Shown here in pieces: positions 631-12,199 of a DNA stretch of 12,273 nucleotides. Numbering within the stretch: the stretch's first letter is position 1; the number at the start of each line of letters is the position of its first letter. Made by a program: the position numbers and the translations under genes. Source of the DNA: Pseudomonadota bacterium (GTDB taxonomy: Bacteria > Pseudomonadota > Alphaproteobacteria > Acetobacterales > Acetobacteraceae). The notes under the pieces were generated by a model, which was given only the letters and a program-made list of their open reading frames with translations, had not been told where the DNA came from and did not search any database. The stretch spans positions 1-12,273 of the forward strand of contig JAJZCS010000035.1 of NCBI GenBank assembly GCA_021829055.1, written 5' to 3'.

Positions 631-705
631 TGGTGAGCCCGGATGGGATCGAACCATCGACCCTCTGATTAAAAGTCAGATGCTCTACCCCTGAGCTACG
701 GGCCC
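631..705 (-). tRNA. tRNA-Lys (anticodon UUU)
   Basis: Read on the minus strand, the sequence folds into a complete cloverleaf. The 7-bp acceptor stem pairs GGGCCCG with CGGGCTC and has one G-T pair. The D arm is GCTC/GAGC. The anticodon stem TCTGA/TCAGA has loop CTTTTAA, giving anticodon TTT. A 5-nt variable loop follows, then a T arm GATGG/CCATC with loop TTCGATC. The discriminator base A is at 634, and a CCA end appears to be encoded at 633-631. It decodes AAA and AAG lysine codons. No base looks damaged, so it should be functional although mobile-element debris lies on both sides. Confidence 0.95.
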
Positions 706-748: not shown

Positions 749-798
749 CGGGTTGGCTTAACGATATGTTGGTATCACGACAAATCTTCCGGTTTGGT

Positions 799-912
799 AG
801 ATGGGATGACGGGCCCCGCCAATCCGGGGATGACGTGAAGGGGGCCTGTTCCTCAAACTGATGGTATCGCGGAGTCAGTGTGGTCCTGCTCCAAGCATCG
901 CGAGGACCATCC
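799..912 (+). ncRNA. Possible bridge-RNA region in the left end of IS110 copy A
   Basis: IS110-group elements are known to transcribe a structured guide ('bridge') RNA from the non-coding end upstream of the transposase. This 114-nt interval is in that position. It contains a CCCCG/CGGGG hairpin near 816-829. It also has a perfect 7-bp stem, TGGTCCT (881-887) with AGGACCA (903-909), around a 15-nt loop just before the start codon. The colinear region of copy B can form 6 of those 7 pairs. Whether an RNA is made is inference; the element is truncated, so it is probably inactive. Confidence 0.3.
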
Positions 913-1211
913 ATGGAACAGTATGCAGTGATCGACGTGTCTTTGGAAGGCTCGAGCGTGTGCATTGTCGCCGGGACCGGAGGCGCTGGTCGCCTGGTTT
1001 GGTGGTCTGGATGTGGCTCCTGCACGGCTTGGCTTGGAAGCGGGGCATTTGTTGCAGTGGCTATACACGGGGCTCAAGGATGCCGGCATTGCCGTTGAGC
1101 TTCTTGAGACCCGCCACGTCCGGACGGTGTTTAAGACCATGCCGGTAAAGACCCATCGCAAGAACGCGCGCGGGATTTCCCAATCGTTGCGGATGGGCTG
1201 GTTCCGCCCGC
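913..1211 (+). pseudogene. IS110-family transposase, N-terminal fragment with internal deletion/frameshift
   Basis: The start reads MEQYAVIDVSLEGSSVCIV, the usual opening of IS110 transposases: the RuvC-like DEDD domain, whose first Asp lies in 'GIDVS' (here VIDVS). At about 970-980 the frame shifts and a short piece corresponding to 'GRIVREAKVASE' is missing. The protein then continues in another frame with PEALVAWFGGLDVAPARLGL, then ELLETRHV, FKTMPVKTHRKNARG and MGWFRP, all colinear with the family. Similarity stops at about 1207-1211, at the end of the IS3-family element. The remaining two thirds, including the catalytic C-terminal serine domain, are absent, so this is non-functional. Compared with copy B, the conserved Gly of 'YAGIDVS' is Val here. 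Confidence 0.8.
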
Positions 1212-1316: not shown

Positions 1317-2435
1317 TTTGTACGCCTCAGCACCATTCTTTGGCTTCTGAATCAAGGTGATCGGCGGTCTGTCACCGATCGCACTATGAGGTCTCGCTTC
1401 GTTGTGTTCGCGGTGTCATTCTTTCACCTTTTGGACGGCATCGTCCATATCCAAAAGCCTGTGCTGGTCCAAGCACTCTAATTGCAGAGAGGCGTTGAAG
1501 CTTTAAGCGAATGCATTGTCCGTGGGTTTGCCTGGTCTCGAGAACTCCAGGGTGATGCTACTGGAATAGGCCCACAGGTCGAGCTCTATCAATGTGAACT
1601 GGCAACTTTGGTCGACGCGGATGGTATGTGGAAGTACGAAGTCCCTATGCGCCCATTCCAAAGCCTCTATCACGGGTTGTGCGGTGGCGGATCTTGTTAC
1701 GCACATGACCGGACAAATGCGGCTCCACGTGTCGACGACGGTCAGTATCCATATGCGTTTGCCGCTGAAAAGCTCATCATACATCCAGTCCATTGCCCAT
1801 ACCTGGCTCGCGCCGGTGGCATTGCTGCGGTGATCGCGGAGTTTGGCGATGATGCGTCGCCGTGGCGTTCATACGCGGGCGCTACTCACTATGCCGCATT
1901 TGTAGGCCTTCCAGACAATAGAACCGATGCACCCGCTTGACGTTGACCAGCCAACCTTCTCTTCTCAGAAGGACATGAATACGCCTGTAGCCATAGCGCG
2001 CTCGCGCCTCGGCAATCTCGCGGATCCGCTTGCGAAGGGAGGCTTGATTGGCTCGCGCAGAGTGATATTGGTATGATCCACGGCAAACCGGCAACGCTTT
2101 GCAGGCTCGTCGGATCGAAACCCGAAAGCACGTTCGGACGAAATCAGTCATCTCTCGGCCCCGTGTTGCCGTTAAATCTTTTTTTAATGACTTCAGTGAG
2201 CATCTCTTTGTCGAGGGTCAGATCTGCCACCAACTTGCGAAGCCGGCCATTCTCTTCCCCGAGCTGCTTCAGCCTGCGGACCTCGGACGGCATGAGCCCG
2301 CCATACACCTTCTTCCAGCGAAAAACGTTGCCTGACTGATGCCCATCTGCGGCACACCACATCGACTGAGGTGCCCCCTTCAGCCTATAGCAGAGCAAAC
2401 ACGATCTGTTGTTCTATAAACCGGGACTTCTTCAT
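1296..2435 (-). pseudogene. IS3-family transposase orfA/orfB, multiply disrupted
   Basis: OrfA starts at the ATG at 2435 (MKKSRFIEQQIVFALL), meets an in-frame TAG, and after frameshifts continues with KVYGGLMPSEVRRLKQLGEE, then KLVADLTLDKEMLTEVIKK. This is the helix-turn-helix and leucine-zipper pattern of IS407-group OrfA. OrfB follows with RRACKALPVCRGSYQYHSAR, YGYRRIHVLLRREGW, MDWMYDELFSGKRIWILTVV, the 'VDQSCQF' Asp motif and 'SRPGKPTDNAFA'. It ends with ARPHSAIGDRPPITLIQ and a TGA at 1298-1296. The codon expected to be the catalytic Glu of the DDE triad ('AF-E-SFN') is a TAA stop at 1505-1503. A further in-frame TGA lies downstream where Trp is usual, and there is a frameshift near 1880. 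The enzyme is dead. Confidence 0.85.
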
Positions 2436-2700: not shown

Positions 2701-2708
2701 CAATTTTT
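2701..2708. repeat. Target-site duplication (left) of the IS1595-family transposon
   Basis: CAATTTTT immediately precedes the left terminal repeat and is repeated exactly after the right one at 6028-6035. An 8-bp duplication is the size reported for the IS1595 family. Confidence 0.9.
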
Positions 2709-2733
2709 GGCGATATTATACTTGACAAACCCA
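2709..2733 (+). repeat. Left terminal inverted repeat of the IS1595-family transposon
   Basis: The 25 nt read inward as GGCGATATTATAC then TTGACAAACCCA. They pair with 6027-6003, differing only at positions 11-13. The TTGACA inside also serves as the -35 box of the transposase promoter. Confidence 0.88.
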
Positions 2734-2750
2734 CCCTTAATCCCTAGATA
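2722..2750 (+). promoter_or_regulatory. Transposase promoter starting inside the left terminal repeat
   Basis: A consensus TTGACA (2722-2727), a 17-nt spacer and TAGATA (2745-2750) lie 25-50 nt upstream of the transposase ATG at 2775. The predicted transcript would start near 2757. A GAGGG ribosome binding site lies at 2761-2765, 9 nt before the start codon. Confidence 0.7.
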
Positions 2751-2774
2751 TGAAGGGCAAGAGGGATTTCGACC

Positions 2775-3749
2775 ATGGCCAGCGTTCTCAACCAACCGTA
2801 CTTCCACGACGAAGAAGCCGCCTTCACGGCGCTTGAAGGGATCATGTGGCCCGGCGGCAAGCCGGAAAGCTGCCCGCACTGTGGCGTAGTTGGGAAGGCG
2901 AACCGGCTGGCGGTACAGCGTTCCAAGCCCTCCAAGCGCAACCCGGAAGGCAAGCCCGTTTATGGCCTTTGGAAGTGCTACGCCTGCCGCAAGCAATTCA
3001 CCGTGCGCAAGGGCACGATCTTCGAAGAAAGCCGCCTAGAGCTTCACCTTTGGTTTCAGGCCGCGTTCCTGATGTGCTCCAGCAAGAAGGGCGTAAGCGC
3101 CAACCAGCTTCACCGCACGCTGGGCTGCACCCTCAAGACGGCTTGGTTCGTAGCCCACCGCCTTCGCGAAGCCATGGCGGAAGGCAACCTGAACCCTTTT
3201 GGCTCCAAGGGCGGCGCGGTTGAGGCCGACGAAGCCTACATCGGGCGCTGGCGTCGCAAGGGCGAAAACGAACGCGGCGCTGATTACAAGATGAAGGTTT
3301 TGACGCTGATCGACCGTGACACGCGCAAGGCTCGTAGCACCGTTCTTACGCACGTGAATTCCAAGACTGTTGGAAAGGTGGTTGCGGAGAACGTAGCGCG
3401 CGAAGCGCGCCTCATGACCGACCAAGCGACCTATTACCCGGAGGTTGGCAAGACGCTTGCATCCCATGAGAGTGTAAACCACTCCAAGGAAGAATATGTA
3501 CGCGGAGAAGTGTATACGAACAACGCAGAGGGCTACTTTTCGATATTCAAGAAGGGCATGAAGGCGGTTTATCAGCACTGCAATGAAAAGCACCTTCACC
3601 GCTATCTCGCAGAATTTGACTTCCGCTATAACCATCGCGCGTCGCAAGGAGTTGATGACGTGAGCCGTACTGCACAGGCGCTTGCAGGCGCCAAAGGCAA
3701 GCGGCTCACGTATCGGGTCGCTGGTGGAAACACCGCGTCCGTGGCGTAA
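2775..3749 (+). CDS. IS1595-family transposase (zinc-ribbon, ISXO2-like DDE)
   Basis: This 324-residue protein cuts and joins the ends of the element in which it lies. An N-terminal zinc ribbon has C33-x2-C36 and C68-x2-C71. A short helical linker (about 85-135) leads to the ISXO2-like RNase-H-fold domain. Likely catalytic positions are D152 in VEADEAYIG, D216 in MTDQATYY, and N250 or E252 in YTNNAEGYFS, followed by a conserved FKKGMKAVYQHC segment and the helix FDFRYNHR. Length is normal for the family and no stop or frameshift interrupts it, so it may be active. The ATG has a good GAGGG site and a consensus promoter whose -35 box sits in the terminal repeat. Its third-position GC looks higher than that of the cargo genes downstream, hinting that transposase and cargo may have different origins. 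Confidence 0.93.
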   Translation: MASVLNQPYFHDEEAAFTALEGIMWPGGKPESCPHCGVVGKANRLAVQRSKPSKRNPEGKPVYGLWKCYACRKQFTVRKGTIFEESRLELHLWFQAAFLMCSSKKGVSANQLHRTLGCTLKTAWFVAHRLREAMAEGNLNPFGSKGGAVEADEAYIGRWRRKGENERGADYKMKVLTLIDRDTRKARSTVLTHVNSKTVGKVVAENVAREARLMTDQATYYPEVGKTLASHESVNHSKEEYVRGEVYTNNAEGYFSIFKKGMKAVYQHCNEKHLHRYLAEFDFRYNHRASQGVDDVSRTAQALAGAKGKRLTYRVAGGNTASVA

Positions 3750-3945
3750 GCCAGAGCAGCTTTCCTTTGCATTCATGCATCGCAAACGGAAATATGCAGA
3801 TGCATCAGAATCTTAGCTAAGTGCTTGTTTCAGCGATGAATCTATGAGATTCTTCAATGGGCGTGTGGCCTGGGTTGAGGGTAACCAGTCCCTTGACGTC
3901 TTGGAGGATGGTTGGCACTGCGAGCCGACCTAAAAGACCGCCGGA
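3750..3945. other. Non-coding gap between transposase and DUF3800 gene
   Basis: These are convergent 3' ends. The plus strand contains an imperfect hairpin (CCTTTGC near 3764 with GCAAACGG near 3781) and a distant AGAATCT/AGATTCT pair (about 3809 and 3851). No T-run follows either, so neither is a convincing intrinsic terminator. Confidence 0.35.
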
Positions 3946-4884
3946 TTAGACAGGTCCACGCTCTCTTTCCCATGGTGCAGGTGGAAGCTCCCAGTGACGC
4001 CCTTTCTGCCAAAGCTGCAACGGATATCCATACCGACGAAAGATCGTCTGTTGATCAATTGATAGTTTCGCTTTGCTAAAGGTCGGCAAAAGCTTCACAC
4101 CGTATCCTGAATATCGACCGCTCGATGTATGCGGGTAGCACGCCATAATTGACCTCAATCTCTCCGCATATTCTGGTTGGCATGGCCCCGACTGTTTGTT
4201 GTCACATGCGGCAAAGAACGCTGACGCAAGTATGTCGGCAAGTTTCAAGCCCGGCAGGTTCTTGTGAAAATCTTTGTCGATCAGAAGTGGGTGGATCGTT
4301 TCCCACTCCACATCACCCCAAGGTAGATAGAGGTTGTCGTTGATGCTCTGCCTCTTGATCCATTGGTAATAAGCTCCGATCTGGCCGATGCGCAAACCGC
4401 CTCTCTCGCTGAAGATGATCTTCATGCGCTTTGTAGTACGAAATTTCTGATTTGATCTGCGCCATACGAAATGAGATGCGCGTTCAAGTGCAACCCTCGT
4501 CAGCCAGCAGTAATACCAGTCCTTGACGCCCATGCGTTCGGCGCGGACATTTCGGTAGCGCCTCATATTCTTTTTGTTCGAGCAGATGACGAAGCCACGC
4601 ACAGGCTTTTGTGCCAGCAGATTGGTGACGGTTATTTTGTAGCCGTCGGGGAGCTTGGCGAAATGAATGTCCGTTAGCTGTTTGCTGCGACTGCCAGCTA
4701 TCATCTCGCCAATCCAACCGGGAAGGTTCACTTCTTCTTCCTTCGGAACCAACAGCAACGATAAGATGAACCACTCGCTGGAACCGCTTGCGTCCACTCC
4801 CAACACATTCCGCAGCCCGGTTTCGCCAGACTCGTCGATATATGCTAGATATTCGTAGTCAGGATTATACGGGTCATCCGTCAT
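3946..4884 (-). CDS. DUF3800 family protein, cargo of the IS1595 transposon
   Basis: This is a 312-residue protein. The family signature is the acidic N-terminal YIDESGETG (about residues 14-22) together with a C-terminal LPGLKLADILASAFFAA segment holding the conserved ADxxA. Between them lie a D-I-H-F motif and a region rich in aromatic and basic residues (WYYCWLTRVALERA, VWRRSN). DUF3800 proteins have no settled biochemical role. Their spaced acidic residues have led to suggestions of an RNase-H-like nuclease fold, and they are often found in mobile or defence-type neighbourhoods. No signal peptide or membrane segment is visible. The ATG at 4884 overlaps, on the opposite strand, the ATG of the 55-codon gene; the only upstream -10-like box (4925-4920) lies inside that gene. 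No disabling change is seen. Confidence 0.85.
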   Translation of the reverse strand: MTDDPYNPDYEYLAYIDESGETGLRNVLGVDASGSSEWFILSLLLVPKEEEVNLPGWIGEMIAGSRSKQLTDIHFAKLPDGYKITVTNLLAQKPVRGFVICSNKKNMRRYRNVRAERMGVKDWYYCWLTRVALERASHFVWRRSNQKFRTTKRMKIIFSERGGLRIGQIGAYYQWIKRQSINDNLYLPWGDVEWETIHPLLIDKDFHKNLPGLKLADILASAFFAACDNKQSGPCQPEYAERLRSIMACYPHTSSGRYSGYGVKLLPTFSKAKLSIDQQTIFRRYGYPLQLWQKGRHWELPPAPWERERGPV

Positions 4885-5050
4885 GCCAAAGAAAGCCCCA
4901 GCAAAGCCGAAGGCTAAGAATAGTACAGATTTGCCTCATGATTTCGAATCCGTCGCCAAGCGCCTCGAATGCGACGAGGACAAGGAGCGGTTTGAGGAGA
5001 GCCTAGGCAAGCTCGCCAGAAGGGTGGCCGGAGACCAATCTAAGGATTAG
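4883..5050 (+). CDS. Small basic hypothetical protein (55 aa) divergent from DUF3800
   Basis: The frame encodes 55 residues: a lysine/proline/alanine-rich tail (MPKKAPAKPKAKN), then a compact charged segment with FESVAKRLECDEDKERFEES and LGKLARRVAG that should form one or two amphipathic helices. Codon use looks coding, with many G- or C-ending codons in the second half. The start ATG (4883-4885) and the DUF3800 start on the other strand share the tetranucleotide CATG, so the two genes are strictly divergent with no spacer. The 3' end overlaps the convergent lipoprotein gene by 11 nt. No strong ribosome binding site is visible. I do not recognise a named family. Size and position would fit a regulator, inhibitor or partner of the DUF3800 protein, but that is inference. 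Confidence 0.6.
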   Translation: MPKKAPAKPKAKNSTDLPHDFESVAKRLECDEDKERFEESLGKLARRVAGDQSKD

Positions 5051-5453
5051 TCTTTTGGGGTGCCGTGCGCTTTTGTGGGATCTTTCGCTGTATATTTGAG
5101 CCGTGAAGATTGGTCAATTTCCCATTGGTTCCGTGGTCTTCAATGCCAATGGATGCATTGTCGATCTCGACATTGTTCGCGCGCAAGCCACATATACCAT
5201 TTCCGATATATAAGCCGGTGCCGAAGCCACTTATCCTTACGTTATTGAGATGCGGACCTTCGCAACGAGCGGGGATGCCATTCCAATAAAACCAAGCTGT
5301 TCTCGGATTATATGGTTCTAATGATATCAGTGGCAACGGAGGTAGCGCATCAGGGACGGTCGCTTTTCGGACGGCCTTTGCATGCGCACATGCGCTCACG
5401 AGCCCATTGGCAAGCAATATCGGCATCAATTGGGCTTTGAGTTGCTTGGACAT
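5040..5453 (-). CDS. Putative lipoprotein with beta-helix-like repeats (137 aa)
   Basis: From the ATG at 5453 the protein has a short basic start (K3, K6), a hydrophobic stretch (about 9-18) and a lipobox-like VSAC at 19-22, suggesting a lipoprotein with Cys22 acylated. The middle (about 65-120) contains LNNVRISGFGTGLYIGNG and RANNVEIDNASIGIED, a rhythm of short strands and glycine or asparagine turns like a right-handed beta-helix. The tail is basic (KIPQKR). The start overlaps the end of the upstream membrane-protein gene by 28 nt. A later ATG at 5426 sits in a TGATG with that gene's stop but would lose the basic n-region. A longer frame opens at 5525. I know no function; its place and partner suggest a cell-envelope role. 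Confidence 0.6.
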   Translation of the reverse strand: MSKQLKAQLMPILLANGLVSACAHAKAVRKATVPDALPPLPLISLEPYNPRTAWFYWNGIPARCEGPHLNNVRISGFGTGLYIGNGICGLRANNVEIDNASIGIEDHGTNGKLTNLHGSNIQRKIPQKRTAPQKTNP

Positions 5454-5956
5454 TGCTGTTGACCACGAACATTTTTTTGCGTGTTTCCACTTCCTCCTCT
5501 CACAATGCCGTGGGAATAACCGCATTCGTCCAAGCCATCTGTCTTGTTATCAGTTCCTAATTCACAATCGAATGTATTCGGCGGACAAGCTGTGGTGGTA
5601 TTTGACGAACGCTGATCTGCGGGCGCCCGCTTGTGAGATGTCGTCGCCTTTTGTGGAGGCGACACTGGATGTGGCGGCGACTGAAATACCGGTCCGTTAT
5701 AGACAGGGCCGTTGTTGGTGACATTCCCATTCTGACCACCGCTGTTATTCGATGCTGGAGCCGTCATTTTTTGAATGGGGGCAGCCTTGGCGGCGGGAAC
5801 AAAAATATATCGATAGGCTGCTACGGGACCAACTGCCAAAATGATGAAAGCCGCGATCATAAAGACCGCCGCAGCCATATAAGCCATTATCCTTTGATGG
5901 CGTTCAGGCAAGCGCTCCCTGATCATTTGGAGCAGCCCAGCAAAGAATTGACCCAT
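5426..5956 (-). CDS. Single-pass membrane protein of unknown function (176 aa), cargo
   Basis: A cytoplasmic N-terminus rich in Arg (MIRERLPERHQR) precedes one strong hydrophobic helix (about 24-47, MAYMAAAVFMIAAFIILAVG and onward). A low-complexity periplasmic region follows, with an NGNVTNNGPVYNGPVFQ motif and many Pro, Asn and Ser. Three cysteines occur near 130-155 (TACPPNTFDC, DECGYS), possibly disulphide-forming outside the cell. The positive-inside rule predicts N-in topology. I chose the ATG at 5956 because a promoter at 6014-5987 would give it a leader of about 25 nt; an in-frame TTG at 5971 is the alternative. The gene is the first of a two-gene unit with the overlapping putative lipoprotein gene. 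No known family recognised. Confidence 0.65.
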   Translation of the reverse strand: MGQFFAGLLQMIRERLPERHQRIMAYMAAAVFMIAAFIILAVGPVAAYRYIFVPAAKAAPIQKMTAPASNNSGGQNGNVTNNGPVYNGPVFQSPPHPVSPPQKATTSHKRAPADQRSSNTTTACPPNTFDCELGTDNKTDGLDECGYSHGIVRGGSGNTQKNVRGQQQCPSNSKPN

Positions 5957-5986
5957 TTTAGAGACGCCCAAAGCTGTAGCCCGGGA

Positions 5987-6014
5987 ATACTATCTTTAGT
6001 ATTGGGTTTGTCAA
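5987..6014 (-). promoter_or_regulatory. Promoter of the envelope gene pair, starting in the right terminal repeat
   Basis: On the minus strand TTGACA (6014-6009), a 16-nt spacer and TAGTAT (5992-5987) lie just upstream of the membrane-protein gene. The -35 box is inside the right terminal repeat, mirroring the transposase promoter at the other end. Confidence 0.55.
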
Positions 6015-6027
6015 AGGTAATATCGCC
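6003..6027 (-). repeat. Right terminal inverted repeat of the IS1595-family transposon
   Basis: Read on the minus strand it begins GGCGATATTACC and continues TTTGACAAACCCA. It matches the left repeat at 22 of 25 positions. CAATTTTT follows directly on the plus strand. Confidence 0.88.
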
Positions 6028-6035
6028 CAATTTTT
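6028..6035. repeat. Target-site duplication (right) of the IS1595-family transposon
   Basis: An exact second copy of CAATTTTT (2701-2708). Confidence 0.9.
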
Positions 6036-6130
6036 GGAGTAGGACCACCCTGACACCGCGACACCATCAGTTTGATGGACGACCACCCTTCAGGTCATAC
6101 CCGGACTAACCGGGGCCCGTCACCCCATCT
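6036..6130 (-). mobile_element. IS110-family element copy B, detached left end
   Basis: Read on the minus strand from 6130, this is colinear with the left end of copy A (799-893). It shares AGATGGG, TGACGGGCCCC, TCAAACTGATGGT and GGTCCT-CTCCAA, with scattered differences between. It stops exactly at the transposon's target duplication, and the continuation is found at 2708-2689 on the far side of the transposon. Together they form one interrupted IS110 5' end. Confidence 0.8.
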
Positions 6131-6202
6131 AGGTGATAATAAGGGCCCAAATTTAGCGAAATATTTTTTGTGACCCGATTAAAATGCACTTTCTCAAAGG
6201 CA

Positions 6203-6231
6203 TTGATTTGCGAAACAGAATTAAGTTAATA
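6203..6231 (+). promoter_or_regulatory. Candidate promoter of the sugar operon
   Basis: TTGATT (6203-6208), a 17-nt spacer and TTAATA (6226-6231) lie in an AT-rich stretch (about 6140-6260) that differs sharply from the GC-rich genes around it. A transcript would begin near 6238, giving a leader of about 34 nt before rfbF. The only nearby alternative would be read-through from the mobile elements. Assigned by eye. Confidence 0.45.
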
Positions 6232-6271
6232 GGTGGGTAGGATAAAAATCTAGTGGCATTGAGGTCTGGCG

Positions 6272-7045
6272 GTGAAGGTTGTTATTCTTGCGGGTGGCCT
6301 CGGCTCGCGCCTCTCGGAGGAAACATCGTTTCGTCCTAAGCCGCTCGTCGAACTCGGTGGCCGTCCCATCCTCTGGCACATAATGAAAATCTACGGCCAT
6401 TACGGTTTCACCGATTTCATCGTTTGCCTTGGCTACAAAGGCTATATGATCAAGGAGTTTTTCCACAATTACTTCCTACACCTGTCTGACGTCACCTTCG
6501 ATCTCGTACAGAATGAGATGACTGTCCACCGCCGCATGACCGAGCCGTGGAAAGTGACCTTGGTCGAGACCGGTGAATCGACGATGACAGGCGGCCGACT
6601 CAAGCGAGTCCTGCCCTATATCGGCGAAGATGAGGTGTTTGCGTTGACCTATGGTGATGGCGTCGCTGATATTGATCTAAAAGCAGAAATGGCGTTTCAT
6701 CGCGGCCACAGACGCCTTGCCACCGTCGCCGCCGTGCGCCCGGCGAAGCGTTTCGGTGTTTTGAACCTAGAAGGTAACAACGTCGCCAGTTTCGCAGAGA
6801 AGCCGGAGGACGAGGGCGGTTGGATCAGCGGCGGCTTTTTTCTATTGTCGCCAAACGTCGGGGAGCTGATCGCAGACGACACAACGGTTTGGGAGCAGGA
6901 ACCGCTCATGACCTTGGCGGCGCAGGATCAGCTGCGTGCGTTCGAGCATCGCGGATTCTGGCACCCGATGGACACGCTCCGCGATAAAACCTATCTGGAA
7001 AACGAGTGGGCGACGGGGCGAGCGCGGTGGAAAGTCTGGGAATAG
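6272..7045 (+). CDS. rfbF: Glucose-1-phosphate cytidylyltransferase
   Basis: Catalyses CTP + glucose-1-phosphate to CDP-glucose + pyrophosphate, the entry step to CDP-linked 3,6-dideoxy sugars. The cytosolic protein has 257 residues, the usual length. The nucleotide-binding signature is at the N-terminus (VVILAGGLGSRLSEET, then RPKPLVELGGRPILWHIM, with the catalytic-type K23). YGDGVADID near 125-135 supplies metal-binding Asp. AEKPEDEGGWISGGFF and the C-terminal FWHPMDTLRDKTYLE are typical of RfbF rather than the thymidylyltransferase RmlA. The start is a GTG (6272) with GAGG 7 nt upstream. It is the first gene of the operon and overlaps rfbG. No defects seen. Confidence 0.95.
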   Translation: MKVVILAGGLGSRLSEETSFRPKPLVELGGRPILWHIMKIYGHYGFTDFIVCLGYKGYMIKEFFHNYFLHLSDVTFDLVQNEMTVHRRMTEPWKVTLVETGESTMTGGRLKRVLPYIGEDEVFALTYGDGVADIDLKAEMAFHRGHRRLATVAAVRPAKRFGVLNLEGNNVASFAEKPEDEGGWISGGFFLLSPNVGELIADDTTVWEQEPLMTLAAQDQLRAFEHRGFWHPMDTLRDKTYLENEWATGRARWKVWE

Positions 7046-8127
7046 ATGCTGAGTTCTGGCGCGGACGCAAAGTCCTTCTGACCGGCCATACAGGTTTTAA
7101 AGGCGCTTGGCTTAGCCTTTGGCTTTTACAGATGGGTGCTCGGGTGCGCGGCTTAGCGCTTGATCCGCCGTCATCTCTGTCTCTGTTCCACTTGGCCCGT
7201 GCCGGCGTGGGTTTAGAGGATCTGCGGGGGGATATCCGCGACTCGGCGATTGTTCATAGCGCCATTGCCGATTTCCGGCCGGATATCGTCATTCATTTGG
7301 CGGCACAGTCGTTGGTGCGGCCCTCTTATTCCGATCCCGTTGGCACTTATGCGACCAATGTGATGGGCACGATCAACGTGCTCGAGGCCGTTCGTGCGAC
7401 CAACGGGATCGGTGCCGTCCTAGTTGTCACCAGCGACAAATGCTACGAAAACCGCGAATGGGATCGCGGATATGTTGAAAGCGATGCCATGGGCGGCCAC
7501 GATCCATATAGTAGTAGCAAGGGGTGTGCGGAGCTCATTACATCGGCTTATCGCCGCTCTTACTTTCATCACGATCGCCATGGCGTGGCGCTGGCGTCGG
7601 CCCGGGCCGGAAATGTCATTGGTGGGGGAGATTGGGCGGTGGATCGGCTGGTGCCTGACGCCATTCGGGCCCTTCTCAACAGAGCGCCCTTTGTAGTCCG
7701 CTCCCCCGAAGCGGTGCGGCCCTGGCAGCACGCACTAGAACCCCTTAGCGGGTATCTGTTGCTTGTGCAACGTCTGCGTAACGAAGGCCAGCGCTTCGCC
7801 GATGGCTGGAATTTTGGGCCTGACCGCGAAGCCGAACGACCGGTCCGCGATCTGGCCGAGCGCATCGTTGGCCTTTGGGGCGAGGGCGCCCGCTGGGAGG
7901 TCATGTCCCAGGCCGGGCTCCCCCATGAGGCGAAGTACCTAACCTTGAATGCGGCCAAAGCCCGTCAAGAATTGGCTTGGCGCCCACGACTGACCCTCGA
8001 TAATGCGCTTGCGCTGACCGTGGACTGGTACAAGGCCTTTGGCACTGGTCGCGATATGCGCCCCTTCACCCAGGACCAGATCGCCGCCTACACTCAAATG
8101 CCCACTGTGCCGGAAATGCCGGAATGA
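7027..8127 (+). CDS. rfbG: CDP-glucose 4,6-dehydratase
   Basis: Converts CDP-glucose to CDP-4-keto-6-deoxyglucose with tightly bound NAD+. It is an extended short-chain dehydrogenase of about 366 residues. The Rossmann motif is TGHTGFKG at 19-26, followed by LSLWLLQMGA. Active-site elements are VVTSDKCYEN (T135-S136-D137-K138) and Y161-SSS-K165, with DPYSSSKGCAE typical of RfbG. RPWQHALEPLSGYL near 240 and WNFGP near 260 are further family marks. I chose the GTG at 7027 (MESLGIDAEFW), which overlaps rfbF by 19 nt; an in-frame GTG at 7006, with GGA 6 nt upstream, would add seven residues. Its stop overlaps the next gene in ATGA. Confidence 0.94.
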   Translation: MESLGIDAEFWRGRKVLLTGHTGFKGAWLSLWLLQMGARVRGLALDPPSSLSLFHLARAGVGLEDLRGDIRDSAIVHSAIADFRPDIVIHLAAQSLVRPSYSDPVGTYATNVMGTINVLEAVRATNGIGAVLVVTSDKCYENREWDRGYVESDAMGGHDPYSSSKGCAELITSAYRRSYFHHDRHGVALASARAGNVIGGGDWAVDRLVPDAIRALLNRAPFVVRSPEAVRPWQHALEPLSGYLLLVQRLRNEGQRFADGWNFGPDREAERPVRDLAERIVGLWGEGARWEVMSQAGLPHEAKYLTLNAAKARQELAWRPRLTLDNALALTVDWYKAFGTGRDMRPFTQDQIAAYTQMPTVPEMPE

Positions 8128-9050
8128 CGCCGCAGAGGATTCTCATCACCGGTGCAACGGGATTCATAGGTGCACGGATCGCGGAGCGGCTAGCAGAGAG
8201 GGGGCATAAATTGGCTCTATTGTTGCGCGCGTCCAAGCCGTACGACCGCGCCGCAGCAATATACGAGTGTTGCGACATCATCCGTGGCGATCTGTCGGAT
8301 CGGGAAAGCTATGCTGCGGCGCTGCGCGCGTTCGCCCCAGAGATCCTCGTACACGCCGCTTGGAGCGGGGTTTCCAGCGCCGACCGCAACGATCCGCGTC
8401 AGATCACCAACATCGGGAGCACAGCCGACTTCTTGGAAGAGGCAATCTCGACCGGAGTTACCAGCTTTGTTGGCTTCGGATCGCAGGCCGAATATGGGCC
8501 GAAGAACCGCAAGATCGACGAGCGCGCGCCGACCGAGCCGACCACCCTATACGGCCATAGCAAGCTGGCCACCTGCCGAGCGACACAGGCCATGTGCCGG
8601 CTAAAGGACGTGCGCCATGCCTGGCTGCGGGTCTTCTCGGTTTATGGTCCCCGCGACAATCCGAATTGGCTCATCCCTTCGTTAATCGCCAAGCTCAAGG
8701 CCGGCGAGATGATGGAGATGACACCCTGCGAGCAAATTTGGGACTTCCTCTATATCGACGACCTCGCCGATGCAGCTGTGGCCGTTGTCGAGAACCCCCA
8801 GGCCGCTGGTATCTTCAATCTGGGTTCCGGAGCCGGACGGCCACTGAGGGAGACCGTGAGACTATTGCGCGACCTTGTGCGTCCGGAAGGCGAGATCGCC
8901 TTCGGCGCTGCGCCCTACCGACCTGACCAGGTGATGCATCTGGAAGCCGATATCGGTCGCCTCGAGGAGGTTGCGGCCTGGCGGCCGGCGACCAAACTTG
9001 AAGCAGGATTAGAAGCGACCGTCCGGTGGTTTACACAGACATATGGATAA
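8124..9050 (+). CDS. Extended short-chain dehydrogenase (NDP-sugar ketoreductase/epimerase)
   Basis: This 308-residue NAD(P)-dependent sugar-nucleotide enzyme has the Rossmann motif TGATGFIG at 9-16, a substrate-site Ser in GFGSQAEYG (about 119), and the catalytic pair Y143-GHS-K147. LRVFSVYGPRDNPNWLIPSL, DFLYIDDLADA and FNLGSGAGRPL complete the family pattern. Substrate cannot be read from the sequence. Between rfbG and rfbH it probably reduces a keto group on a CDP-6-deoxy or 3,6-dideoxy sugar, as abequose/paratose synthases (RfbJ/RfbS) and the yersiniose enzyme YerF do. The overlap ATGA with rfbG implies coupled translation. A 48-nt gap separates it from rfbH. Confidence 0.8.
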   Translation: MTPQRILITGATGFIGARIAERLAERGHKLALLLRASKPYDRAAAIYECCDIIRGDLSDRESYAAALRAFAPEILVHAAWSGVSSADRNDPRQITNIGSTADFLEEAISTGVTSFVGFGSQAEYGPKNRKIDERAPTEPTTLYGHSKLATCRATQAMCRLKDVRHAWLRVFSVYGPRDNPNWLIPSLIAKLKAGEMMEMTPCEQIWDFLYIDDLADAAVAVVENPQAAGIFNLGSGAGRPLRETVRLLRDLVRPEGEIAFGAAPYRPDQVMHLEADIGRLEEVAAWRPATKLEAGLEATVRWFTQTYG

Positions 9051-9098
9051 TTTTAGGTCGCACGAGAATTTTGCGAGCCGTCCTGGTGGGATAAATCG

Positions 9099-10442
9099 AT
9101 GACTGCTTACAACCCTGATGCCCTGCGCGAAAAGATACTGGCCCTATGCGAGCAATATGCGGCGGTGGAGCACGGGCTCAAGCCGTTCCAGCCGGGCGTC
9201 AGCCCAGTGCCGGTCAGTGGCAAAGTACTCGGCATCACCGAAATGCGTATGCTGGTAGACTCATGCCTTGATTTTTGGTTGACAACCGGACGCTTCAACA
9301 CTGAGTTCGAGAAGCAGCTGGGTAAGCGCACAGGCGTGATGCAAGCGCTGACGACGAATTCGGGCTCGTCGGCAAATCTCCTGGCTTGCACGGCGCTGAC
9401 CTCGCACATGCTAGGCGACAAGGCCTTGAAGCCCGGCGATGAGGTGATCACCTGTGCTACGGGGTTTCCCACGACCGTAAACCCGTCACTGCAAAACGGT
9501 CTGGTGCCCGTCTTCCTCGATGTCGAACTTGGCACCTACAATATAGATATCAGCCGGCTCGAGGAAGCGGTGAGCCAGCGCACGCGCGCGATCATGATCG
9601 CCCACACGCTTGGCAATCCTTTCGACCTGGGCGCCATCACCGCCATAGCAAAGAAGTATGATCTCTTCCTCGTGGAAGATTGCTGTGACGCGCTGGGCGC
9701 AACCTACGACGGCAAGAACATCGGTACCTTCGGGGCGCTGGGCACGCTCTCTTTCTATCCGGCCCATCATATCACTATGGGCGAAGGCGGCGCGGTGCTC
9801 TGCAATCGTATGATCTTCAAGCGCGTCGTGGAATCGATTCGCGACTGGGGCCGCGACTGCTACTGTGAGCCGGGCAAGGACAACACCTGCAAACGCCGGT
9901 TCGACTGGAAGCTAGGCGACCTGCCCTACGGATACGACCACAAATATACTTACTCGCATCTCGGATATAATCTTAAGATCACCGACATGCAGGCCGCCGT
10001 AGGTCTGGCGCAACTTGAGCGGCTGGACGAGTTCGTCGCCGCACGCCGCCGCAACTGGCAATATTTGCGCGACGGACTTCGCGATCTCGAAGATGTCCTC
10101 ATGTTACCGATCGCCACCGCGAACAGTGAACCTTCATGGTTTGGTTTCTGCATCACGCTTCGTCCCGGGACTCCGTTCGACCGCGAAGAGCTCATGCGCT
10201 TTCTCGACAGCAAGAAGGTTGGCACGCGCCTGCTGTTCGGCGGTAATCTACTGCGCCAGCCCTATATGAGTGGGCGCAAATATCGCGTTGCTGGCCCGCT
10301 CGACAATTCGGACATCGTTATGAACCGCACATTTTGGATTGGTGTATATCCTGGTCTGACCCACGCGCACCTTGATTACGTACTGGAAACGCTGCATGAG
10401 TATTTCAAGAATAAGAGGATAGCGGCCCATACCGCATCCTAG
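9099..10442 (+). CDS. rfbH: CDP-4-keto-6-deoxyglucose 3-dehydrase (E1)
   Basis: This PMP- and [2Fe-2S]-dependent enzyme removes the C-3 hydroxyl of CDP-4-keto-6-deoxyglucose, the committed step to 3,6-dideoxy sugars. The 447-residue protein is full length for RfbH, with a DegT/DnrJ aminotransferase fold. The lysine that normally holds PLP is replaced by histidine (H223 in [14 protein letters not shown]), the hallmark of this dehydrase. The iron-sulfur ligands appear complete: C196 in [10 protein letters not shown], and C254, C256, C264 in [13 protein letters not shown], each three residues after the positions I recall for the Yersinia enzyme. The ATG at 9099 is preceded by GGTGGGA. Turnover in known systems needs a separate NADH-dependent reductase, which is not in this window. 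Confidence 0.96.
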
Positions 10443-10460
10443 CAAGGGGAGCGCGCGGAG

Positions 10461-11312
10461 GTGAACGGACTGAAGCGATTCAAGAGCAGCGAGGCTGCAG
10501 CACGTCAGTTGCGACGCGATACCATCATGATGATCGAGCGATCCAAAACGTCCCATATCGGCAGCTGTCTGTCGATGGCCGACATTTTGGCTGTGCTTTA
10601 TCGCGACGTGCTCAACCTGGATGCCCGCGATCCAAAGTGGGTACAGCGTGATATCTATCTGCAATCAAAGGGCCATGCCGCCGCGATCCTCTATGCGTGC
10701 CTTGCGCGCGTCGGCTATATTGATCCTGTCGAGCTGGCTCGCTTCTGCCAGGACGGTGCAAGCCTTGGTGGCCATGTTACGACGCACGGTGCGCCGGGGG
10801 TTGAGCTCTCGGTTGGATCTCTTGGACATGCGCTTCCAGTGGGTGCCGGGTGGGCGCTCGGCATGAAGCGGAAGGGGAAGACGCGCCGGGTCTTCGTTGT
10901 TCTCAGCGACGGCGAATGCGATGAAGGCTCAAACTGGGAAGCTGCTCTTTTCGCAGGGCATCACGGACTCGACAATCTTAGCGCCATCGTCGACTGTAAC
11001 GGCATTCAGAGCTTCGGTAGCGTGGAAGAGGTCATGCGGTTGGAGCCGTTTGTTCAGAAGTGGCGGGATTTCGGTTGGCAGGCTGTCGAACTAAATGGGC
11101 ACGATCACGCCGCCCTGCGCCAAGCGCTGGAGTGTCGGACCGAGGGTGGTAAACCGCTGTGCATCATTGCGCGCACAGTGAAGGGCCGCGGCGTCTCGAG
11201 CATGGAGAATGCACTTCTGTGGCACTACCGCTCTCCTTCGAAGGATGATGCGGACGCGGCATTGATTGAACTTGGCGGAGCATCATGCGAAACAGATTTG
11301 TGGACGCGCTGA
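10461..11312 (+). CDS. Transketolase-like protein, N-terminal (TPP-binding) subunit
   Basis: This 283-residue protein corresponds to the thiamine-diphosphate-binding half of transketolase. Seen are SKTSHIGSCLSMADILAVLY, the active-site LQSKGHAAAILYA, GSLGHALPVGAGWALG, and the TPP/metal motif SDGECDEGSNWE (D150) through DCNGIQ (N180), with SDG in place of the usual GDG. CIIARTVKGRG closes the domain. It needs the next gene's product to form an active site and presumably transfers a ketol unit onto an aldehyde or ketone acceptor. The GTG start at 10461 follows an AGGGGAG and GGAGG context. It begins 18 nt after rfbH and overlaps the next gene by 28 nt, tying it to the dideoxy-sugar pathway, not central metabolism. 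Confidence 0.88.
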   Translation: MNGLKRFKSSEAAARQLRRDTIMMIERSKTSHIGSCLSMADILAVLYRDVLNLDARDPKWVQRDIYLQSKGHAAAILYACLARVGYIDPVELARFCQDGASLGGHVTTHGAPGVELSVGSLGHALPVGAGWALGMKRKGKTRRVFVVLSDGECDEGSNWEAALFAGHHGLDNLSAIVDCNGIQSFGSVEEVMRLEPFVQKWRDFGWQAVELNGHDHAALRQALECRTEGGKPLCIIARTVKGRGVSSMENALLWHYRSPSKDDADAALIELGGASCETDLWTR

Positions 11313-12199
11313 GCGCCATAGCGGAGACCGATCCGCGCCCATTCCTGATCACCGGCGATCTTGGTTTTTCCGTGTTGGAGCGCTTTCAAAACTGCTTTCC
11401 TGACCGCTTTTTAAATGCTGGTGTCGCTGAGCAGAATATGACCGGCTTGGCAGCGGGGCTGGCTATGGCAGGCTATTACCCATTCACCTACTCCATCGCC
11501 AATTTCCCGACACTGCGCTGCCTCGAGCAGATCCGCAACGACATCTGTTATCACCGCCTGCCAGTTTGTGTGGTCGCGGTCGGTGGCGGTGTTGCCTACG
11601 GCGCATCAGGCTACTCACATCATGCTGTCGAGGATCTGGCTATTATGCGCGCGCTCGATGGCATGACGGTCTTGGCTCCCGCCGATCCTGTAGAGACCGC
11701 CTGTGCAGTGGAAGCGATCGTCGCCGCTGGCCGGCCGGCCTATCTGCGGCTGGGTAAGGGAGGAGAGCCGAATCTTCACCGCTCTAAGCCGGGTTTTGTC
11801 ATCGGCCGACCGTTGATGCTGCGTGCGGGAACGGAGATCTGCATCGCGGCCTCCGGCCCCATCGTCGGAAATGCGCTCGCTGTGGCAGACATGTTGGCAG
11901 CGGACGGGATAGCGGTGCGCGTGCTCAGCTTTCCTACGCTAAATCCGCATGAACCGGATGCGCTGCGCGCAGCCTTTGAAGGCATTGGAAATGCTTTCTT
12001 CCTCGAAGAGCATTTCGGCAATCCACTCCTCGCTAGCATCGCCGAGGTGGCGCCAGATATTCTGGCCAAAATGCGGAGCCACCCACTCTCGCTTGCTCGC
12101 ACGAACAAGCATGTGCTTGGGAGTCGCGACTATCTTCTATCTCTTAGCGGCTTGGCTCCGGATGGCATTGCCGCGCGCATTCGTCAGAGCCTAGGCTAA
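11285..12199 (+). CDS. Transketolase-like protein, C-terminal (pyrimidine-binding) subunit
   Basis: This 304-residue protein is the second half of the split transketolase. The pyrimidine-binding domain has NAGVAEQNMTGLAAGLAM, whose E49 should activate the TPP aminopyrimidine. Next come YSIANFPTLRCLEQIRND and GVAYGASGYSHHAVEDLAIM, with the histidine pair typical of transketolase and 1-deoxyxylulose synthase, and VLAPADPVE. The C-terminal domain (about 175-300) includes IAASGPIVGNALAVADML and RVLSFPTLNPHE. It overlaps the N-subunit gene by 28 nt, so the two are probably made in equal amounts. Together they may add a two-carbon branch to the CDP-4-keto-3,6-dideoxy sugar; that role is inferred from context. 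Confidence 0.88.
   Translation: MRNRFVDALSAIAETDPRPFLITGDLGFSVLERFQNCFPDRFLNAGVAEQNMTGLAAGLAMAGYYPFTYSIANFPTLRCLEQIRNDICYHRLPVCVVAVGGGVAYGASGYSHHAVEDLAIMRALDGMTVLAPADPVETACAVEAIVAAGRPAYLRLGKGGEPNLHRSKPGFVIGRPLMLRAGTEICIAASGPIVGNALAVADMLAADGIAVRVLSFPTLNPHEPDALRAAFEGIGNAFFLEEHFGNPLLASIAEVAPDILAKMRSHPLSLARTNKHVLGSRDYLLSLSGLAPDGIAARIRQSLG

Follow-up and report, generated by a model that had tools for sequence, protein, structure and literature searches.

The DNA analysed here, a stretch of 12,273 nucleotides from contig JAJZCS010000035.1 of an Acetobacteraceae assembly (GCA_021829055.1; hereafter the window), contains at 2709-6027 a 3,319-bp element that is, as judged from its sequence, almost certainly an IS1595-family cargo transposon. 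We consider it very likely that the element represents a kind of transposon close in size to an insertion sequence (IS), in which the transposase gene (tnp) and a small gene of 55 codons, ORF55, form a core that carries exchangeable cargo, possibly of an addiction or defence type. The cargo of the element itself consists of one predicted nuclease, a DUF3800 protein, and two genes of no recognised kind. The original prediction for this DNA had described exact ends with a perfect 8-bp duplication, an apparently intact IS1595-family transposase and four passenger genes; the ends and the transposase were borne out, and the view of the passengers had to be modified.

The terminal inverted repeats of the element match at 22 of 25 positions and are flanked on both sides by CAATTTTT. 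The extent originally given, 2701..6035, placed the ends correctly and included as its outer 8 bp on either side the target duplication, which is not part of the element proper. An identical 8-bp repeat combined with an inverted repeat of at least 22/25 at a spacing of 700-8000 bp was found in none of 200 simulated (first-order) windows, so that the observed pair is not due to chance at such stringency; when the threshold was relaxed to 15/25, a repeat pair was present in 17 of 50 simulated windows, and weak repeat pairs alone would therefore mean little. The strongest proof of insertion at the level of sequence comes from a paralogue of the target that lies elsewhere in the window and has no insertion. 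When 2401-2708 was joined to 6036-6270, the joined flanks aligned with positions 968-798 on the minus strand at 84% identity over 172 bp, with a single 1-bp gap off the junction, none at the junction, and one copy of the 8-bp sequence. We take the target to be an IS110-like remnant, a label that is partly our own assumption and partly follows a match of 2557-2703 in Pfam that is weak (E 0.062) and does not reach the cut-off. Ends of the GG...CTTGACAAACCCA type, similar to the left end of the element, were seen in many relatives.

The transposase is by its sequence a full-length IS1595-family enzyme. It matched the IS1595 model NF033547 (E 1.5e-55, 188 bits, cut-off 75) and PF12762 (E 1.5e-32, 113 bits, cut-off 27), and has an N-terminal zinc ribbon (PF12760, E 3.8e-10, 40 bits, cut-off 25.4). 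In the excerpt consulted of a published description of the family, the zinc ribbon is missing only in the IS1016 group and 8-bp duplications are a family trait (PMC8101967). The residues D152, D216 and E252, which would be catalytic, and C33/C36/C68/C71, which would bind zinc, are identical in all 54 aligned transposases, that of the window included; the latter deviates at four columns that are at least 90% conserved (T154A, G184R, R260K and G264A). The transposase domain, the zinc ribbon, the inverted repeats and the 8-bp target duplication that define an IS1595 element are all present, and other genes sit inside the ends, as is characteristic of passenger-bearing IS1595 elements (tIS). Within the family, the ISNha5 subgroup has long, passenger-bearing members. 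The window's own assembly holds one close transposase copy, with eight further matches at 29-44% identity.

Relatives were searched for with the transposase only, to avoid the bias that selection by DUF3800 would introduce. Counting the window's own genome, a match was found in 16 of 299 genomes of the order and 38 of 385 genomes of the class Alphaproteobacteria; a sample of the phylum gave 22 matching genomes out of 398, of which 20 (again with the own genome) were in Alphaproteobacteria, and the new loci of this sample are outside the cargo survey. The ends were examined in 62 transposase-selected loci (15 + 47), with the partial transposase L046 left out and one of the two elements of L160 kept, and 39 complete elements were obtained. 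The sizes of these elements range from 1,833 to 4,306 bp (median 2,496), the part behind the transposase has a median length of 1,516 bp, and cargo is present in all 39; an IS without cargo, about 1.1 kb long, would have been accepted by the search, but none was among them. The 8-bp duplication is exact in 37 of the 39 and has one mismatch (7/8) in L149 and L186, and the 37 exact duplications are not independent evidence because exact duplications were sought first. No ends were found for L031, L033, L034, L035, L036, L037, L040, L042, L045, L151, L153, L157, L175, L182, L184, L189 and L190, and candidate ends were rejected as weak or unmatched for L146, L152, L161, L162, L169 and L176 and for the plasmid locus L192. 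The contig of L160 carries two elements of the family side by side, on opposite strands and with different ends.

The original prediction had looked to relatives for support, and these have the same kind of ends with different 8-bp duplications, in some cases with cargo that is shared (DUF3800, or the PIN pairs of L149/L193) and in others with different cargo (L144/L191, L155/L181). Outcomes that would speak against the proposed ends, such as cargo continuing beyond them without the repeats, were not seen, and matched ends occurred in 39 of the 62 transposase-selected loci.

ORF55, originally counted among the four passengers, turned out to be a near-constant partner of the transposase rather than a loose passenger. 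Its homologues occur in 31 of 57 elements and, on the window's side of the transposase tree, in 27 of 29; among transposase-selected elements alone, the numbers are 11 of 13 on the window's side and 2 of 26 elsewhere. The tree is a quick one, from which the short transposases L080, L177 and L188 were excluded; 19 of its 51 inner branches are open, and no starred set contains the window. In L147, ORF55 begins at the base right after the transposase stop, which suggests an ancestral tnp-ORF55 operon. A separate search with ORF55 in 289 genomes gave 13 matches in 10 genomes (the own genome included), nine of them beside a transposase listed in the class-wide search, one (L213) 1.3 kb from a transposase match, and three without a transposase (L214, near a contig end, L215 and L216). 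From the database, 1156 homologous proteins were retrieved at E 0.01, with no Pfam domain among the 120 listed. A structure prediction gave two helices at low confidence (pLDDT 73, pTM 0.40) and was not used. ORF55 is likely to be part of the transposition core and, because of its linkage and its position, would have an accessory or regulatory role.

A different small protein, basic, encoded on the minus strand and having a core like LLKTPPQPRP and a lysine-rich tail, occurs in nine of the 28 elements off the window's side (L159, L160, L165, L173, L177, L178, L179, L183 and L185) and in none of the 29 on the window's side, with a pattern that was set after the sequences had been seen. In those elements it might correspond to ORF55.

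Cargo is found at two places. Slot 1, between the transposase and ORF55, contains DUF3800, a PIN pair, other genes, or no gene at all (L147, L154 and L164), and slot 2 lies behind ORF55. Related transposases can be accompanied by different cargo. In L144/L191 the transposase DNA is 83% and the ORF55 DNA 82% identical, with no alignment between or after them. In L155/L181 (76%), in L038/L041 (79%) and in L177 compared with L170, L178 and L185 (77%), the DNA alignment is restricted to the transposase, and L170, L178 and L185 mutually share only 21-38 residues, located on the LLKTPPQPRP-type protein. No cargo proteins of the swapped pairs matched each other at 0.01, save for 15 residues in L144/L191. 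Two further candidates, L147/L188 and L149/L193, were rejected as swaps, their cargo proteins being homologous (31% and 33-37%, respectively); our ratings are unaffected, because the other pairs carry the point. When cargo labels, partly set by hand and with L156 counted as other, were placed on the transposase tree, 22 changes were required, compared with a minimum of 4 and an average of 29.5 for shuffled labels; cargo is thus tied to the transposase beyond chance, yet is often different. The occurrence of different cargo in related elements suggests, as far as sequences can tell, that the passengers are dispensable for transposition.

The slot-1 protein of the window matched PF12686 (DUF3800) with 25.7 bits (gathering score 21), and its predicted structure has an RNase HII-like fold; no PDB sequence, and so no solved RNase HII, matched the DUF3800 profile at E 10. 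On the strength of the model, we think that the protein is reasonably likely to be an active nuclease. A non-coding RNA partner was looked for among known families; Rfam models above their family thresholds gave only a tRNA in the window and only tRNAs in eight DUF3800 loci, so that no known RNA family supports such a partner. A scan of genome contigs with one DUF3800 sequence found no relative, and a profile of 30 sequences found 64 loci; on plasmids, no DUF3800 was detected at 1e-15. A transposase match is present in 20 of the 64 loci and is adjacent and convergent to DUF3800 in 19; the match in L082 is distant (28%, 2.6 kb away), and L089 has a second element further on. Complete elements were delimited in 15 of these DUF3800-chosen loci, all with ORF55, and in 14 DUF3800 lies between the transposase and ORF55, the exception being L089, whose complete element has a PIN pair instead. 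The order tnp/DUF3800/ORF55 recurs in Nitrobacter, Azospirillum, Phenylobacterium and others. How frequently DUF3800 is carried cannot be read from this sample, because it was selected by DUF3800.

To see what the cargo encodes, 88 ORFs (open reading frames) from 42 elements (the 39 transposase-selected ones, two plasmid elements and the window) were compared with Pfam at a cut-off of 0.001; a 550-aa ORF of L180 was scanned in addition and is outside the 88. They matched 24 families, mostly of nuclease or toxin type: PIN four times, DUF3800 three times, and once each PIN_10, DUF433, NYN, HEPN, HEPN_MAE_28990, GmrSD_N, RelA_SpoT, DUF1828, SocA_Panacea, N6_N4_Mtase with Mrr_cat, and MT-A70, the remaining few including an aspartyl protease and a transposase. 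As a control, 88 flanking ORFs drawn from 247 matched 60 families, and the 25 listed were mostly metabolic, transport and housekeeping families, with one cytosine methylase. The motif R[NH]xxxH is typical of HEPN proteins. Among proteins of 90-320 aa, it occurs in 22 of 76 cargo and 12 of 162 flanking proteins (Fisher p 3e-5; 13 of 167 before the stretch upstream of L160, which is the second element, was removed from the control), and a stricter HEPN-like motif, set post hoc, in 18 cargo proteins and one flanking protein. By a list of nuclease, toxin and methylase types that we compiled ourselves, with DUF1828 counted, 13 of the 39 elements have a Pfam match of such a type, and 28 of 39 have such a match or the strict motif. 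Relatives, not the window, have a DUF433/PIN_10 pair and, preceded by an upstream partner, a gene annotated as VapC-family. We also noted small slot-2 proteins with weak, below-cut-off matches to the Cas2-type family PF09827 in L057 (E 0.008) and L191 (E 0.005), with which slot-2 proteins of L075 and L080 were grouped by eye, that of L080 having no match.

The proposal that the cargo of the window is possibly a defensive module gains from the cargo of the relatives and not from that of the window, where no cargo protein matched a PADLOC model at 0.001 (the best was JetD, 0.0026, for DUF3800). Likewise, the two slot-2 genes, originally called an envelope pair, are present and overlap each other, and they gave no Pfam match above the cut-off; their membrane or secreted character was assigned by eye. 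For the product of 5426-5971, three homologues besides itself were found at E 0.001, the best at 48%. Based on what the relatives carry, we regard a role of the cargo in defence or addiction as evenly balanced.

In the mechanism we propose, the transposase would bind the 25-bp ends via its zinc ribbon and move the whole unit with an 8-bp stagger, which is assumed because of family knowledge and the observed duplications. ORF55 would act as an accessory or regulator of transposition, DUF3800 would be a metal-dependent RNase HII-type nuclease acting on RNA or RNA-DNA hybrids, and the cargo would persist by stabilising the element (addiction) or by protecting the host from phage. A broader view sees this IS1595 group as a dedicated vehicle, no larger than an IS in kind, for exchangeable modules of immunity or addiction. 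Its tnp-ORF55 chassis with two cargo slots would spread effectors that cut RNA or DNA and consist of one or two genes (DUF3800, PIN, HEPN-like, GmrSD, RelA/SpoT) among Alphaproteobacteria; DUF3800 would be an RNase HII-like immune effector carried by a transposon, and ORF55 a new kind of transposase partner. We hold this view tentatively and rate it less likely than not.

Several observations weigh against a carrier of exchangeable, nuclease-type cargo built on tnp-ORF55. Some related pairs (L147/L188, L149/L193) keep homologous cargo. ORF55 was found in only four of the other 28 elements (three of the 28 being outside the tree), and the branch that splits the two sides of the tree has an SH-aLRT support of 90, below the 95 mark. 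Ends were not accepted at 23 of the 62 loci, at least 11 of which have a contig end no more than 2 kb away on their cargo side. DUF3800 is rare: of the 39 elements selected by transposase, two have it, L156 and, in pieces, L044. The strict HEPN-like motif was defined after the sequences had been seen, and only two motif proteins (L154, L186) pass the Pfam HEPN cut-off, the match of L159 being weak, so that HEPN is a lead for the remaining ones. PADLOC families did not separate the cargo (84) from the flanks (68); the lists were filled by redundant methyltransferase models, and the other cargo matches listed were PDC-S33, NsnA and PD-T4-2_A. Finally, one copy of the element is seen, in an assembly that is about 79% complete; that it is recent and possibly still mobile, as first suggested, is plausible.

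Some of these points would suit neutral cargo, in which any 1-3 kb is tolerated and filled with short genes at hand, nuclease types being common in mobile DNA generally. Eleven of the 39 elements have neither a recognised nuclease-, toxin- or methylase-type Pfam match nor the strict motif (L032, whose PIN match does not reach the cut-off, is one of them), the slot-2 genes of the window match no family, and the aspartyl protease and the MT-A70 methylase are among the cargo. We nevertheless consider neutral cargo unlikely, as the HEPN-like motif is in excess in the cargo and the Pfam families of the cargo (all 24 listed) differ strongly from those of the flanking ORFs (25 of 60 listed), with the reservation that this control is flanking DNA and not the cargo of other elements. 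It is also conceivable that the nuclease-type cargo serves the transposon itself, for example by DUF3800 cutting RNA-DNA hybrids or regulating expression in transposition. The position of slot 1 between the transposase and ORF55, the overlapping start codons of the DUF3800 gene and ORF55 in the window, and the toxin-antitoxin pairs likewise embedded in the transposition module of Tn3-family elements, according to the part of PMC7157771 consulted, would fit this idea. Slot 1, however, contains unrelated proteins or is empty (as in L147, L154 and L164) in elements that still have exact duplications, so that no single cargo appears to be needed for movement, and we judge such a self-serving function improbable. 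That a DUF3800 gene of separate origin was joined by chance to a minimal IS1595 element is very improbable: 44 of the 64 DUF3800 loci, some on short stretches, do lack a transposase of this kind in the DNA examined, but the position of DUF3800 in 14 of 15 complete DUF3800-search elements and its recurrence across genera disfavour a composite, and no second repeat pair in the window passes the 15/25 test.

IS1595 elements with passengers have been reported: the excerpts consulted of PMC5704250 describe MTnSag1/tISSag10 and tISCpe8, with 25-bp terminal repeats. The window element resembles these tIS, as far as the excerpts go, in its IS1595 DDE transposase, 25-bp terminal repeats and passenger genes, and it shares the 8-bp duplications of the family (PMC8101967). 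MTnSag1/tISSag10 and tISCpe8 differ from it in that they are mobilizable, tISCpe8 with lincomycin resistance (according to a title cited in PMC5704250), whereas the window element is distinguished by the tnp-ORF55 pair, by DUF3800 or other nuclease-type cargo, and by its occurrence in Alphaproteobacteria. In the Tn3 family, the sections consulted of Lima-Mendez et al. 2020 (PMC7157771) describe toxin-antitoxin pairs within the transposition module, acquired several times independently, and the likeness lies in small modules of toxin type, including PIN and HEPN, at that location. Tn3 elements have another transposase family with a resolvase, and most of the cargo of the IS1595 group is no recognised toxin-antitoxin pair. 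DUF3800 proteins have been associated with loci of Cas12a2 (V-A2) and of type VI-F and described as having an RNase H fold in the portions consulted of PMC10910872 and PMC12669027, in agreement with the Pfam family and the RNase HII-like model here. The Cas12a2 partner described there also has a TPR domain, which is unmatched in the window protein, and the window gene is transposon cargo; NF and Pfam profile scans matched no Cas genes in the element. Passenger-bearing IS1595 elements and toxin-type genes in Tn3 modules are thus already known, and what is new is the setting with the tnp-ORF55 pair and nuclease-type cargo, on which we found no publication in a search limited to open-licence literature.

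If the proposed reading of tnp-ORF55 elements with exchangeable cargo is true, elements hardly larger than an IS would be a mobile pool of small nuclease- or toxin-like genes that are now annotated as separate hypothetical proteins, and their exact ends would delimit candidate defence genes one by one. ORF55 would be a component of a transposition system that is as yet unexplained and simple to approach by experiment.

Table 1 Features of the element, its target and its surroundings in the window.
Feature	Position	Strand	Basis or remark
Left target duplication, 8 bp	2701..2708	.	CAATTTTT, equal to 6028-6035; single 8-bp equivalent in the uninterrupted paralogous site
Left terminal inverted repeat	2709..2733	+	22/25 compared with right end
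Transposase, IS1595-family DDE, 324 aa	2775-3749	+	ORF list, NF033547, PF12762, PF12760
DUF3800 protein of 312 aa as slot-1 cargo, with a predicted fold like RNase HII	3946-4884	-	ORF list, Pfam, structure model
ORF55, 55 codons, conserved small protein linked to transposase	4883-5050	+	Homologues in relatives
Slot-2 cargo ORF	5040-5525	-	Start probably closer to 5453; N-terminus resembles a signal peptide (by eye); no Pfam match
Slot-2 cargo ORF, 181 aa	5426-5971	-	By eye, a single apparent transmembrane helix plus a stretch rich in proline; no Pfam match passing cut-off
Right terminal inverted repeat	6003..6027	-	22/25 compared with left end (reverse complement)
Right target duplication, 8 bp	6028..6035	.	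CAATTTTT, perfect copy
Uninterrupted paralogue of target, presumed IS110-like remnant	798..968	-	84% to joined flanks across the junction
IS3-like transposase pieces, several short frames, apparently decayed	1503-2398	-	HTH_21 in 1882-2151, rest by eye; beside IS110-like remnants
tRNA-Lys gene (anticodon ttt)	631-705	-	At the border of the insertion-rich stretch
Row of sugar-nucleotide-type genes following the element	6272-12199	+	First two genes: nucleotidyl transferase and NAD-dependent epimerase/dehydratase matches

To the left of the element, a further inverted pair of copies was observed at 1212-1315 and 2450-2555 (92% over 107 bp), indicating that the target lies in a repeat-rich stretch. 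In the gene row behind the element, aminotransferase- and transketolase-like ORFs were recognised by eye.

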